A DNA stretch of 27,842 nucleotides from a virus: positions 1-27,842 of IMG/VR virus record IMGVR_UViG_3300037392_000019; one strand, given 5' to 3'. The translations under genes were made by a program, and so were the position numbers. Positions 1,086 through 12,031 of this stretch are shown here, in pieces; the first letter of the stretch is position 1, and each line of letters begins with the position of its first letter. The notes below the pieces were generated by a model that saw nothing but the letters and a program-made list of their open reading frames with translations, had not been told where the DNA came from and ran no database searches.

Positions 1086-1460
1086 TTACGAACCTCCCTT
1101 TTGTGTTACTTTATAATGCCGTAAAAACAATCTTATCACATTTTGCTGCTTAAAGCAAGAGCCAGTGGGAAGGTATGTAAGTTAACAAAGTAAAGTGATA
1201 AACAGTGATGGCAATGCCTCCTATATAGGTCCTAATGTATATCTACACTTACTTACTTATCGACCTGATCTCTATACTATATCTATATATTTATATTATG
1301 TAAAATCACTTTTTAACAATCTAATAATATATAATACATAGATGATGTAAGATATGTAAGTAGGTAAGTAGGTAAGTAACGAAGTAGAAATTACAAGAGG
1401 GTCTAATACAGGCGGCAAAGCACTCACTCTTCTCTACCTCGTTACTTACCGTTTATTTAC
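1086..1460. repeat. AT-rich noncoding region with GTAAGTA iterons (candidate origin or control region)
   Basis: No convincing gene lies in these 375 bases. The sequence is visibly AT-rich, with long runs of A/T at about 1270-1345. GTAAGTA or its complement TACTTAC recurs: 1248-1260, about 1354-1380 (three near-tandem 8-bp units GTAAGTAG), 1441-1450 and about 1455-1464, with related TGTAAG copies near 1174 and 1347. GGTAAGTAACGAAGTAGA at 1371-1388 is an imperfect inverted repeat of 1433-1450 (17 of 18 bases). A 10-bp palindrome CCTATATAGG lies at about 1220-1229. Iterons plus an AT-rich stretch are typical of replication origins and of multi-site operators; which one applies cannot be told here. 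Confidence 0.5.
1290..1319 (-). promoter_or_regulatory. Possible sigma70-like promoter reading leftward
   Basis: On the minus strand TTGTTA (1319-1314) is followed after 18 nt by TATAAA (1295-1290). It would read toward the 126-aa gene at 1085. The region is so AT-rich that chance matches are common, so this is weak. Confidence 0.25.
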
Positions 1461-1658
1461 TTACTCTCCCACCTCCCTAATCTCCACCTCCAACTCTCGC
1501 GGTGGGTGGGTTGTAGGTAGGGCGTAACCATGATCGCCGATCTTAGGTATCGAGATAATCGATGACCGAGCTTGGTTAGGGAATTTGAGTGAGTAGATAT
1601 GATGCTTCTCCGTCTGTCTCACCCAGGTGAGTTTTAACTTCGCGTGAAATTGGGTCAT
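1461..1658 (-). CDS. Hypothetical 65-aa protein
   Basis: The ATG at 1658 overlaps the TGA of the upstream Cys-pair gene (ATGA), and AAGGAGGT stands 8 nt before it, so this start is preferred over a longer frame. The peptide (MTQFHAKLKLTWVRQTEK...) looks like a small beta-rich fold with alternating hydrophobic residues and ends acidic (ELEVEIREVGE). I do not recognise it. It is the last gene of the 3341-1461 run; its stop codon lies within the first GTAAGTA repeat of the noncoding region. Confidence 0.7.
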   Translation of the reverse strand: MTQFHAKLKLTWVRQTEKHHIYSLKFPNQARSSIISIPKIGDHGYALPTTHPPRELEVEIREVGE

Positions 1659-2818: not shown

Positions 2819-3118
2819 TTACTTCGTCACCATCCCTTCCGCCAGCTTGTTAAGTACCTCAATCTTCCCAGCAGCTTGCAGTTTCGCCCGTATCGCCCTC
2901 TGCACGGCGGCCTTCTCCGCGTTCCGCAACTTCCGTGCTGCGATTACCTCGGATCTTAGGTTATAGGATTTTCTATACGCGATACGGTCGAGGTAGGACT
3001 GCACGTCCTTCTCCGCAATCCCGAGTTCAGCGGCGAGGTCCCTTATCGCTCTCACTGGTGCCGCCGCGCTGGTGGTGATTTCGTGTGCCAGTTGGTTCGC
3101 ATTCTTATTATCGGTCAT
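2819..3118 (-). CDS. Hypothetical 99-aa helical protein
   Basis: I place the start at ATG 3118 because AAGGAG lies 7 nt upstream; that SD overlaps the end of the preceding gene. The sequence is Ala/Arg/Lys-rich and helical. Residues 20-45 (PVRAIRDLAAELGIAEKDVQSYLDRIAYRKSY) look like a helix-turn-helix-type arrangement ending in a basic helix, so nucleic-acid binding is possible. No named family is recognised. Confidence 0.7.
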   Translation of the reverse strand: MTDNKNANQLAHEITTSAAAPVRAIRDLAAELGIAEKDVQSYLDRIAYRKSYNLRSEVIAARKLRNAEKAAVQRAIRAKLQAAGKIEVLNKLAEGMVTK

Positions 3119-3122
3119 GTTG

Positions 3123-3341
3123 TTACTCCTTCTGATGCGTTGGTGCATCACTCCTATTATTTATATTGTATATCAAACACGATCGGATTCGCAACAAAAA
3201 GTTTCTAAAATCTTTCTTAGGAATCCGCCTCCTCCCAGTTGTTGGCTCCGCAACAGATGTCCAACTCCCATTCAGGGTCGCTTCCTCAACAGCGTGTGTG
3301 TAAAACATCTCCTTGATATAGATCTCATTGTATATTCTCAT
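3123..3341 (-). CDS. Hypothetical 72-aa protein
   Basis: ATG 3341 is preceded by AAGGAGA at a spacing of 10 nt, and the frame ends in the SD of the next gene (AAGGAGTAA). The peptide (MRIYNEIYIKEMFYTHAVEEATLNG...) is basic in its second half. It is the first coding gene downstream of the GC-rich structured stretch and would be the one controlled by it. No family is recognised. Confidence 0.6.
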   Translation of the reverse strand: MRIYNEIYIKEMFYTHAVEEATLNGSWTSVAEPTTGRRRIPKKDFRNFLLRIRSCLIYNINNRSDAPTHQKE

Positions 3342-3390
3342 CGCAGTCTAATCTCCTTTGTGTTAAAGTTTACTACTATCTACAAACGAA

Positions 3391-3540
3391 ATCACTCTCC
3401 AGTGGGAAGTCGGTGCCTTCGCCGCCTCTCTCACCGCTCTCGTTGGTTCTTTCGTGCCCTACGGACCCCCCGAAGCAGACTTCGCCCTTCCGGGCGTGTT
3501 AGAGGTTTCCCTCAGGGCATCACGGGATAGTCGGCCCTTA
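3391..3540 (-). ncRNA. Candidate structured RNA with GNRA-capped hairpins
   Basis: Read on the minus strand, an outer stem pairs GCCCT (3518-3514) with AGGGC (3460-3456) and continues as CGT/ACG beyond a 3-nt bulge. It encloses GAGG-GAAA-CCTC (3513-3502), CGCCC-GGAA-GGGCG (3496-3483) and GAAG-TCTG-CTTC (3483-3472). The first two loops are GNRA tetraloops only in the minus-strand RNA, which gives the strand. A further stem CGGTG/CACCG pairs 3436-3432 with 3415-3411, and a small hairpin lies at 3404-3393. A second AGGGC at 3538-3534 could compete for GCCCT, giving a switch-like alternative fold. The segment is more GC-rich than its neighbours and holds no well-supported gene. It resembles a riboswitch or attenuator leader, but no known class is recognised. 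Confidence 0.4.
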
Positions 3541-3566
3541 TAGCGTATTAAGTTGTTGTAGTACTG

Positions 3567-3596
3567 TTACTGTGGTGGTGCTCTAATAGCGTTCAT
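3567..3596 (-). CDS. Possible 9-codon leader peptide (MNAIRAPPQ)
   Basis: A near-perfect SD (AAGGAGG, 7 nt spacing) precedes ATG 3596, which opens only nine codons before TAA 3567. The peptide ends in Pro-Pro-Gln, and polyproline near a stop can slow ribosomes. It lies directly upstream of the hairpin-rich segment, the arrangement used by attenuators. Both the coding status and the regulatory role are inference. Confidence 0.4.
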   Translation of the reverse strand: MNAIRAPPQ

Positions 3597-3622
3597 TGTG
3601 TTACCTCCTTACGTTATGTTAC

Positions 3623-3814
3623 CTACTGCTTCTCACTCTGCCTCCACGCCTTGAACTCCTGCCATTGTTGCTTGTTCCTCTTTGTCCGATACGTGAGGTT
3701 ATACAACCCATTATCAATGACTTGGCTGAGTAACTCCGCGTCCGTCTTGTTGGGTCTCGTCGCCTTGAGTTCTTTCATCTTGCTCTGCTGTTCCTTACTC
3801 AGTTCAATGTTCAT
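3623..3814 (-). CDS. Small putative DNA-binding (RHH-like) protein, 63 aa
   Basis: I start at ATG 3814, 6 nt after a GGAG, giving MNIELSKEQQSKMKEL and then a helix-turn-helix-like pair (TDAELLSQVIDNGLYNLTYR). A short N-terminal strand followed by two helices, with an Ala-Glu-Leu-Leu...Val-Ile-Asp-Asn-Gly-Leu pattern, is reminiscent of ribbon-helix-helix proteins, and the C-terminus is basic. The assignment is tentative. Its leader (TGGAGATCA before the ATG) closely matches that of the 57-aa gene upstream. Confidence 0.6.
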   Translation of the reverse strand: MNIELSKEQQSKMKELKATRPNKTDAELLSQVIDNGLYNLTYRTKRNKQQWQEFKAWRQSEKQ

Positions 3815-3854
3815 ATTGATCTCCATGTTTGAATTAGGTATGCTAAGCACACCA

Positions 3855-10691: not shown

Positions 10692-11582
10692 ATGCCAGCA
10701 ACACGCGGTGGATTTTCGCAGTTACTTGCTCCCGGGTTGTACTCAGTTATCTACGAAGATCTTGAGATGCACCCGGAAGAGTACATACAGTTTTTCAACG
10801 TCTACAGCAGTTCGAAGGCTTACGAAGAGGACCAACTCTACGCAGGCCTGGCTGCTGTGCCGAGCAAACCCGAAGGCGAGCCGATTAAATTCGACGAGCC
10901 CATGCAGGGTGGTTCGGTAAGGTATCAACACGCAGGGTTTGGTTTGGGATTCCAAGTTACCCGTGAGATGTGGGATGATGATCAGTACGGATTGATGAAG
11001 AAGGTTTCGGGGGACTTCGGTGGGTCGATTCGCCAAACGGTTGAATCGGGCGCAGCGGCTGTGCTGAATAACTCCTTTACCTCCATCAAGACGATCGATG
11101 GTGGAACCTTTATCGGTTCCCATAATCTTATGGGTGGTGGGACTTACTCCAATGCGTCAGCAACCAACGTTGCGTTCGGAGTTACAGGCCTTCAAGAACT
11201 CATTCTCATCTTCGAGAAGATGGTCAACGAACGGGGGCTCATCAAAAGGATGGTCCCCGAATCAATCCTCATCCCGGTCGATCTGCAATTCAAAGCGCAG
11301 GAAGTTCTCCACTCTTCCTACAAACCTTACACCGGTACGAACGAGGTGAACTCAGTCCAGGGTCGTGTCTCCCCTATTACTGACCACTATCTCACCTCAA
11401 CAACAGCCTGGTGGATGTTAGCTCGGAAGAGCGGACACACCCTAAAGGCCTTCTGGAGGACTCAACCGGAATTTGACAGCCAGGACGACTTTGCAACCAA
11501 ATCGGCAGCATTCAGTGTGTGGTTCCGGGAAGTTTTTGGAGTCACTTATTGGCATGGAGTAGCTGGGAGCCCGGGGCAGTAG
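10692..11582 (+). CDS. Major capsid protein (HK97-fold, Mu gpT-like style)
   Basis: The 296-aa protein has the layout of HK97-fold capsid subunits: an N-terminal arm with an acidic Tyr-rich segment (YEDLEMHPEEYIQFFNVYSSSKAYEE), a domain with GFQVTREMWDDDQYGLMKK and GGSIRQTVESGAAAVLN, then a beta-rich end with LIPVDLQFKAQEVL. Position after scaffold and the length agree. The GF..TREM..DD...G pattern is like Mu gpT-type and related capsids. The C-terminus is Gly-rich (YWHGVAGSPGQ). AAGGAGA precedes the ATG by 5 nt. Confidence in the MCP role is high; the family detail is less certain. Confidence 0.82.
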   Translation: MPATRGGFSQLLAPGLYSVIYEDLEMHPEEYIQFFNVYSSSKAYEEDQLYAGLAAVPSKPEGEPIKFDEPMQGGSVRYQHAGFGLGFQVTREMWDDDQYGLMKKVSGDFGGSIRQTVESGAAAVLNNSFTSIKTIDGGTFIGSHNLMGGGTYSNASATNVAFGVTGLQELILIFEKMVNERGLIKRMVPESILIPVDLQFKAQEVLHSSYKPYTGTNEVNSVQGRVSPITDHYLTSTTAWWMLARKSGHTLKAFWRTQPEFDSQDDFATKSAAFSVWFREVFGVTYWHGVAGSPGQ

Positions 11583-11596
11583 AATTAGGAGATAAC

Positions 11597-12031
11597 ATGA
11601 CACATGATCAATTCAAAATCTGGTTAGCTGGATTTTTCGACGGAGAAGGTTCTGTTGGACTAGCTACTGGAAATAATGCTTGTGTTTGGAGATCTCCTAG
11701 AGTTACTTTGACTCAGAAAGGATCAACTGATCTGATTATGAAGATCAAAGAACTATATGGAGGCTCTGTTAGTAAGCACACTCGATCGGGAGTAAATCAA
11801 TGGAACTTAAGTAAGGCAGCTGATGTTATTAAGTTTCTTGAAGATATACTCCCTTATCTTCAAATTAAGAGTGCAAGAGCTGAGGTTATCCTGGCTATTG
11901 CTCAGATTATTGAGAGCGGTAAGTTTCATAACACTTTTGGATATACTCCTGCATCTGAGGAGATAACCCAAAAGAGGATGGAACTTGAGATGGCCTATGA
12001 CTCTCTTGGGCCGTCAAGGGAGAAGAAATAA
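11597..12031 (+). CDS. LAGLIDADG homing endonuclease, free-standing
   Basis: Residues 9-20 read WLAGFFDGEGSV, the LAGLIDADG helix with its Asp/Glu metal ligand, followed by GNNACVWRSPRVTLTQ and KIKELYGGSVS typical of the beta-sheet DNA-binding face. At 144 aa with one motif it should act as a homodimer. AGGAGA precedes ATG 11597; the longer frame from 11519 overlaps the capsid gene and is not needed. Base use is visibly more A/T-rich than in the flanking structural genes, indicating later arrival. No intron or intein was seen around it. It makes no structural sense and is probably a selfish gene next to the MCP. Confidence 0.85.
   Translation: MTHDQFKIWLAGFFDGEGSVGLATGNNACVWRSPRVTLTQKGSTDLIMKIKELYGGSVSKHTRSGVNQWNLSKAADVIKFLEDILPYLQIKSARAEVILAIAQIIESGKFHNTFGYTPASEEITQKRMELEMAYDSLGPSREKK

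Follow-up and report, generated by a model that had tools for sequence, protein, structure and literature searches.

A conserved block in a phage early region with an IRAPP minigene, a small structured RNA and a promoter

The block and its relatives

The window, i.e. the whole stretch of DNA analysed, is a linear phage contig from IMG/VR of 27,842 bases; up to ~4.2 kb its minus strand carries small genes, and the plus strand carries terminase, portal-like and virion genes. A non-coding gap of ~280 nt (3342-3622) lies inside the tight minus-strand gene array, and the GC content of positions 3350-3574 is 0.54-0.55, compared with 0.42-0.47 on both flanks; a first-pass annotation of the sequence had pointed out both properties, and both hold. 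Read leftward, the order of features is early genes, a minigene with an arrest motif, a structured RNA, one or more promoters and the next genes (Table 1). The first-pass annotation had described the RNA without the minigene that precedes the fold by ~29 nt, and had also missed the promoter that makes up the 3' third of the block. The product of the LAHE gene gave weak, sub-threshold matches to helix-turn-helix and small-terminase families, and a fold search with it returned no significant match. A search of the block for tRNAs found none, and named phages searched with it yielded a single 29-nt chance match (E 0.7).

Table 1. Features of the block and of the neighbouring genes, in the direction of leftward transcription
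Feature	Positions	Strand	Description
MNIELSKEQ gene	3623-3820	-	Upstream of the block; 65 aa, function unassigned, conserved
Shine-Dalgarno of minigene	3604-3610	-	AAGGAGG
Minigene	3567-3596	-	9-codon ORF, MNAIRAPPQ then stop; predicted ribosome-arrest peptide; directly 3' of the MNIELSKEQ gene
Spacer	3542-3566	-	Minigene to fold; ACTAC-(C)AACAA-rich, conserved; 31-35 nt counted from codon 8
P1 hairpin	3514-3538	-	AGGGC 3538-3534 / GCCCT 3518-3514; 5 bp, 15-nt loop with conserved ACTAYC
P2 hairpin	3502-3513	-	GAGG-GAAA-CCTC; GNRA loop GAAA 3509-3506
P3 hairpin	3483-3496	-	CGCCC-GGAA-GGGCG; GNRA loop GGAA 3491-3488
Possible pseudoknot	3478-3532	-	P1-loop GACT 3532-3529 / AGTC 3481-3478; pairs in the window, L003, L004 and L007
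Variable tail	3409-3477	-	49-66% identity; further hairpins differ among relatives
Block promoter	3367-3408	-	TTCCCACTGG 3408-3399, -35-like GTGATT 3395-3390, N17, -10 TAAACT 3372-3367
Variable small gene	3123-3341	-	3' of the block promoter; non-homologous among relatives, missing in L007 and L055
LAHE own promoter	3165-3194	-	TTGCGA-18-TACAAT; present in relatives too
LAHE gene	2819-3118	-	Conserved next gene; 99 aa, all-helical

A terminase query returned seven loci, and an alignment query added one more distant phage, L055, whose terminase is 81% identical. The block is kept at the same place, 3' of the MNIELSKEQ gene and 5' of the LAHE gene, in six further contigs (L002/L005, L003, L004, L007 and L055); these represent five distinct sequences, L002 and L005 agreeing across the block. 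Four of the six distinct sequences (window included) are nearly identical in the core, the divergent ones being the window and L055 only. The small genes that flank the block are not homologous from one phage to the next, where they are present at all, and its persistence while neighbouring genes were exchanged indicates that it is under selection of its own. The spot between the block promoter and LAHE, which holds non-homologous small genes at 3123-3341 and at the corresponding places of L002, L003 and L004, is a hot spot for the exchange of small early genes. The first-pass annotation would have given up its RNA if the segment proved to be coding in relatives; instead, all six frames carry stops in every relative, with an 8-9-codon ORF as the sole exception.

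Queries with the terminase, LAHE and the small genes found no additional relatives of the block. Larger relatives of these phages, L063/L064 (IMGVR_UViG_3300021403_000018) and L067 (IMGVR_UViG_3300009093_000016), encode QueC, QueD-type (PTPS) and GTP cyclohydrolase I proteins according to Pfam, a QueE-like ORF recognised by eye, and a DNA polymerase A whose N-terminus carries a fused UDG domain. Such a set of Que and GTP cyclohydrolase genes is known from phages with 7-deazaguanine in their DNA (PMC6884629), and from their gene content L063/L064 and L067 probably carry the same modification. LAGLIDADG-like ORFs (LAGFFDGEG), probably homing endonucleases, lie near virion protein genes at different insertion places in the window (11519-12031, plus strand) and in L068 (8376-8795, plus strand). 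The window also contains a long AT-rich intergenic stretch (1230-1470, minus strand) with repeated AAGTAAGTAAGT / TTACTTACCTACTTACC tracts and possible inverted repeats.

The folded RNA

When compared with dinucleotide shuffles, the 170-nt region originally proposed to be structured folded no better than expected, with z = 0.04 on one strand and -0.15 on the other, which is the outcome that the first-pass annotation had said would refute its RNA; positions 3450-3540 did no better than their shuffles (z = -0.72). The 63-nt core at 3541-3479, in contrast, escapes this refutation: it folded with -24.4 kcal/mol and z = -2.77 on the minus strand (3/200 shuffles), the plus strand giving z = -1.25. 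Both GNRA hairpins predicted for the minus strand were found (P2 and P3 in Table 1). The outer stem that was thought to enclose them was not recovered, since no relative has an equivalent of its 3' arm (AGGGCA near 3460-3455). Two copies of AGGGC are indeed able to pair with the single GCCCT, as had been noticed, but the two-state switch derived from this is unconserved: the pairing that is kept, P1, involves the copy at first regarded as the competitor, and since the AGGGC of the outer stem occurs in the window only, the switch is peculiar to this single sequence.

P1 is kept in all relatives, and in L055 one of its pairs has changed from G-C to C-G with pairing retained. The stem of P2 is 4 bp long in the window and L055 and 3 bp long elsewhere, both arms changing length together around an unchanged GAAA loop. 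P3 occurs in five distinct sequences, the relatives having the loop GGGA, which is still of the GNRA class, and is lost in L055. Of the compensatory changes that the first-pass annotation had asked for, P1 shows one pair and P2 the paired change in length, and P3 is broken in L055; the covariation score, obtained from only four distinct core rows, was reached by 29 of 500 shuffles, so that the covariation is suggestive but not conclusive. The P1 loop could in addition form a pseudoknot in part of the sequences (Table 1), with one mismatch in L002 and no equivalent in L055, and it is not claimed here. Synteny in six contigs, the compensatory pair in P1, the length change in P2 and the z-score of the core (-2.8) support the view that the block contains a conserved, strand-specific structured RNA outside known Rfam classes.

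A covariance model of the element gave one match per phage, in these phages only (E 6e-19 to 2e-12), and on the other fetched loci it produced only weak matches in sequences selected by pattern (E 0.018 or worse). Searching bacterial genomes with the P1-loop pattern gave 17 matches, about the level expected by chance; the one with the best covariance-model score, L012, lies, as judged by eye, inside a polysaccharide-deacetylase-like ORF. A P1-independent pattern retrieved the known loci and unrelated sequence from viral contigs, and nothing else. No Rfam family was matched at the gathering threshold (best E 2.5 for the window and 0.56 for L055, the latter to Hammerhead_II and below threshold), in keeping with the earlier remark that no known class has this layout. 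Since the window and two relatives matched nothing in Rfam at permissive thresholds, a riboswitch or other known non-coding RNA was rejected; of the functions initially suggested, the riboswitch finds no support, and a role resembling that of an attenuator, or one that depends on translation, would be plausible. HK022 put is a phage antiterminator RNA with small hairpins in early transcripts. The present element would likewise be a small hairpin RNA of early phage transcripts, but it shows no sequence or Rfam match to put and is preceded by an ORF with an arrest motif.

The minigene and its IRAPP motif

In every relative the minigene is preceded by a G-rich, Shine-Dalgarno-like stretch at the corresponding position (AAGGAG, or GCAGG in the case of L055). 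The encoded peptides are MLHIRAPP in L002, L003 and L007, MLHIRAPPK in L004 and MNTIRAPP in L055, each followed by a stop codon, RAPP thus lying near the C-terminus in all six distinct sequences. Codons 2-3 vary freely, whereas in codons 4-8 the four variable nucleotide columns are all synonymous (Ile ATT/ATC/ATA, Arg AGA/AGG/CGA, Pro CCA/CCG) and IRAPP is invariant. Four randomly placed changes would keep the IRAPP peptide with P about 0.003, a value that comes from a small sample and treats sites as independent. Judging by this substitution pattern, IRAPP is selected at the peptide level. When the window and the large contigs were scanned for tiny ORFs of RAPP/RGPP type with a Shine-Dalgarno-like sequence, these minigenes were the only ones found.

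RAPP is an experimentally established arrest motif (PMC10951233, PMC12992588). In ApdP the sequence at the arrest site is Ile130-Arg131-Ala132-Pro133-Pro134, and the stalled ribosome holds RAP in its P site and Pro in its A site (PMC10951233). Both RAPP and RGPP cause arrest behind many different N-terminal sequences, EF-P does not relieve them, and proteomes avoid them (PMC12992588). The IRAPP of the minigene is identical to ApdP 130-134 and, as in ApdP and ApdA (PMC10951233, PMC7897499, PMC10987492), stands at the C-terminus of an upstream ORF; those ORFs, however, have >100 codons, whereas the minigene has 8-9, lacks a localization signal and belongs to a phage in which it is not beside sec/yidC, and its arrest is predicted only. 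A minimal RxPP motif is sufficient for arrest according to work cited in PMC10951233, while in PMC12992588 RAPP alone was insufficient and an N-terminal region was needed; residues upstream of RAPP contribute to arrest in both accounts (PMC12992588, PMC10951233). On these conflicting accounts the three residues that precede IRAPP in the minigene might or might not suffice, and the nascent chain of 7-8 residues, shorter than in the RAPP peptides studied, counts against arrest. With three residues only before IRAPP, and an N-terminal localization or sensor domain absent, the product of the minigene would not be a Sec/YidC-type monitoring substrate. On the strength of motif identity and conservation, it is nevertheless strongly suggested that the minigene stalls ribosomes.

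Similarities with other regulatory ORFs are partial. CruR (PMC9426467) also ends its regulatory uORF with RAPP and has a long untranslated stretch behind it, but it includes a metal-binding protein part that the minigene lacks, it acts by Rho-dependent termination in an unstructured, C-rich rut region whereas the phage transcript is G-rich and structured, and in the phages the block's own promoter follows. E. coli SecM, which controls secA, ends in IRAGP (i.e. Ile-Arg-Ala-x-Pro) and has structured RNA downstream of the arrest ORF; the minigene differs in having no long N-terminal sensor, and pairing of its RNA with the next Shine-Dalgarno was not found. ermCL and ermDL, like toiL, are short sensory leaders that stall on drugs. 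toiL itself (PMC12121999) shares with the minigene a very short leader ORF with a predicted stall near its end, but in leaders of this type the stall is drug-induced and the RNA refolds around the next Shine-Dalgarno, whereas the motif of the minigene needs no drug in the cases known, and the computed folds here predict no refolding.

Promoters and a possible role for the block

The promoter at the end of the block belongs to a class, TTCCCACTGG-N26-TAnAnT, that is common to all these phages and occurs across the early region, nearly always on the minus strand. A -10-like hexamer is found at exactly +36 in 18 of 32 CCCACTGG sites, with 0-5 at other offsets, and a -35-like xTGxxx often lies 17 nt ahead of the -10; the reversed pattern of TTCCCACTGG, used as a control, gave no sites. 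The distance from box to -10 is thus fixed, as in a sigma-70-like phage promoter class. The -10 of the block promoter reads TAAACT in the window; L002 has TACAAT, and L007 and L055 both have TAGAAT. The TTCCCACTGG box lies immediately 5' of the -35 and might bind an activator or a repressor. Promoters of this class were also seen in L003, L007, L004, L005 and L055, and the window has a second TTCCCACTGG site at 1171-1162 (minus strand; promoter 1171-1130). An AT-rich hairpin on the minus strand of L007 (6490-6460) and L055 (8195-8150), TTCTAAGAAAAA...TAGAA with TTATTTTGTTGC behind it, overlaps the promoter -10; it is weak (-1 to -4.5 kcal/mol) and is possibly a remnant terminator.

What is observed in the block is the ORF and its conservation as coding sequence, the fold of P1 and P2, and the layout of the promoter. 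Our main reading of these, to which we give a probability of roughly 0.45, is that the block is a compact control region at the junction of two early leftward units, in which an arrest minigene and an RNA act in cis, with a promoter behind them. Ribosomes translating the minigene would come to a halt as they do on ApdP, the P site holding Ile-Arg-Ala-Pro and the A site Pro. The conserved RNA of ~60 nt starts ~40-44 nt after the P-site codon, and the RNA and the arrested ribosome would jointly affect the leftward transcript in cis; the module would mark the point at which transcription and translation coming from upstream stop, pause or go on, before control passes to the downstream promoter. 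We infer the direction in which the block would regulate. It is tentatively proposed, too, that a minimal, drug-independent IRAPP arrest peptide and a hitherto undescribed RNA of ~60 nt (P1, its conserved 15-nt loop and two short hairpins) form a two-part module of early regulation that has been kept despite the exchange of neighbours. Points against the main reading are that the downstream genes have promoters of their own, that only the window and L055 diverge in the core, and that L055 keeps neither P3 nor the pseudoknot; the in silico folds and the transcript composition described below weigh against it too.

A role in cis at this junction has two main rivals: that the RNA serves as a 3' end or a small RNA, and that the block is a strict attenuator. 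The shortness and stability of the fold, the position of the downstream genes' promoters behind it and the closeness of the minigene to the upstream gene would all suit a stable 3' end of the upstream early transcript, or a small RNA derived from its 3'-UTR, with the minigene as a last, weakly constrained cistron and the promoter behind starting the next unit; this is unlikely, however, as an intrinsic terminator was not found directly behind the fold and the coding conservation of IRAPP would go unexplained. A strict attenuator of the SecM/TnaC/CruR kind, in which the stalled ribosome remodels the RNA or blocks Rho and so switches downstream readthrough or translation, would agree with the order of RAPP ORF, structured or untranslated RNA and next gene, which resembles secM-secA and cruR-bfrG (PMC9426467) and toiL (PMC12121999). 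Yet P1 lies ~24-28 nt past the edge of the stalled ribosome, and when the minigene was blocked in silico the folds were little changed and the probability of P1 showed no systematic change (single-strand prediction; L003 left out), for which reason ribosome-driven refolding was rejected. Sequestration as in SecM was set aside as well, since the next Shine-Dalgarno pairs in the computed folds with nearby bases only and not with the element. A CruR-like Rho/rut site is unlikely because the transcript is G-rich and not C-rich (the plus-strand GC skew is negative) and the core is structured. The motif and the RNA are each well backed as conserved elements; set against the standard models, however, folds and composition leave the classical attenuators unsupported by computation, and a strict attenuator seems improbable.

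That the inverted repeats act at the DNA level, as binding sites of a phage regulator of the TTCCCACTGG promoter, would fit the fact that the element abuts the promoter in every relative; but the GNRA loops are kept in the minus-strand sense only, the core beats its shuffles on that strand only, and the other TTCCCACTGG promoters are without the element (a single covariance-model match per genome), making such sites quite improbable. Last, a very short ORF with a strong Shine-Dalgarno in a phage early region recalls minigenes that act by peptidyl-tRNA drop-off or ribosome sequestration, as lambda bar does, and not by regulatory arrest. With positions 4-8 conserved as protein and positions 2-3 free, and since minigenes of the lambda bar type are not known to need a conserved IRAPP, there is very little to be said for this explanation.

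RAPP arrest peptides have so far been described in bacterial genes, mostly those coding for long proteins equipped with a localization signal or a sensor, and some of the papers on these peptides that were searched make no mention of phages. The present results suggest that a ribosome-stalling signal reduced to a minimum is used in phage early genes. If this is true, the eight-codon phage version would show how little arrest needs, and the minigene would be a convenient model for the role of the residues before RAPP; it would also connect arrest peptides with a new small RNA of phages and with the control of their early genes. The TTCCCACTGG promoter class, in turn, provides a first regulatory map of these phages with deazaguanine genes.
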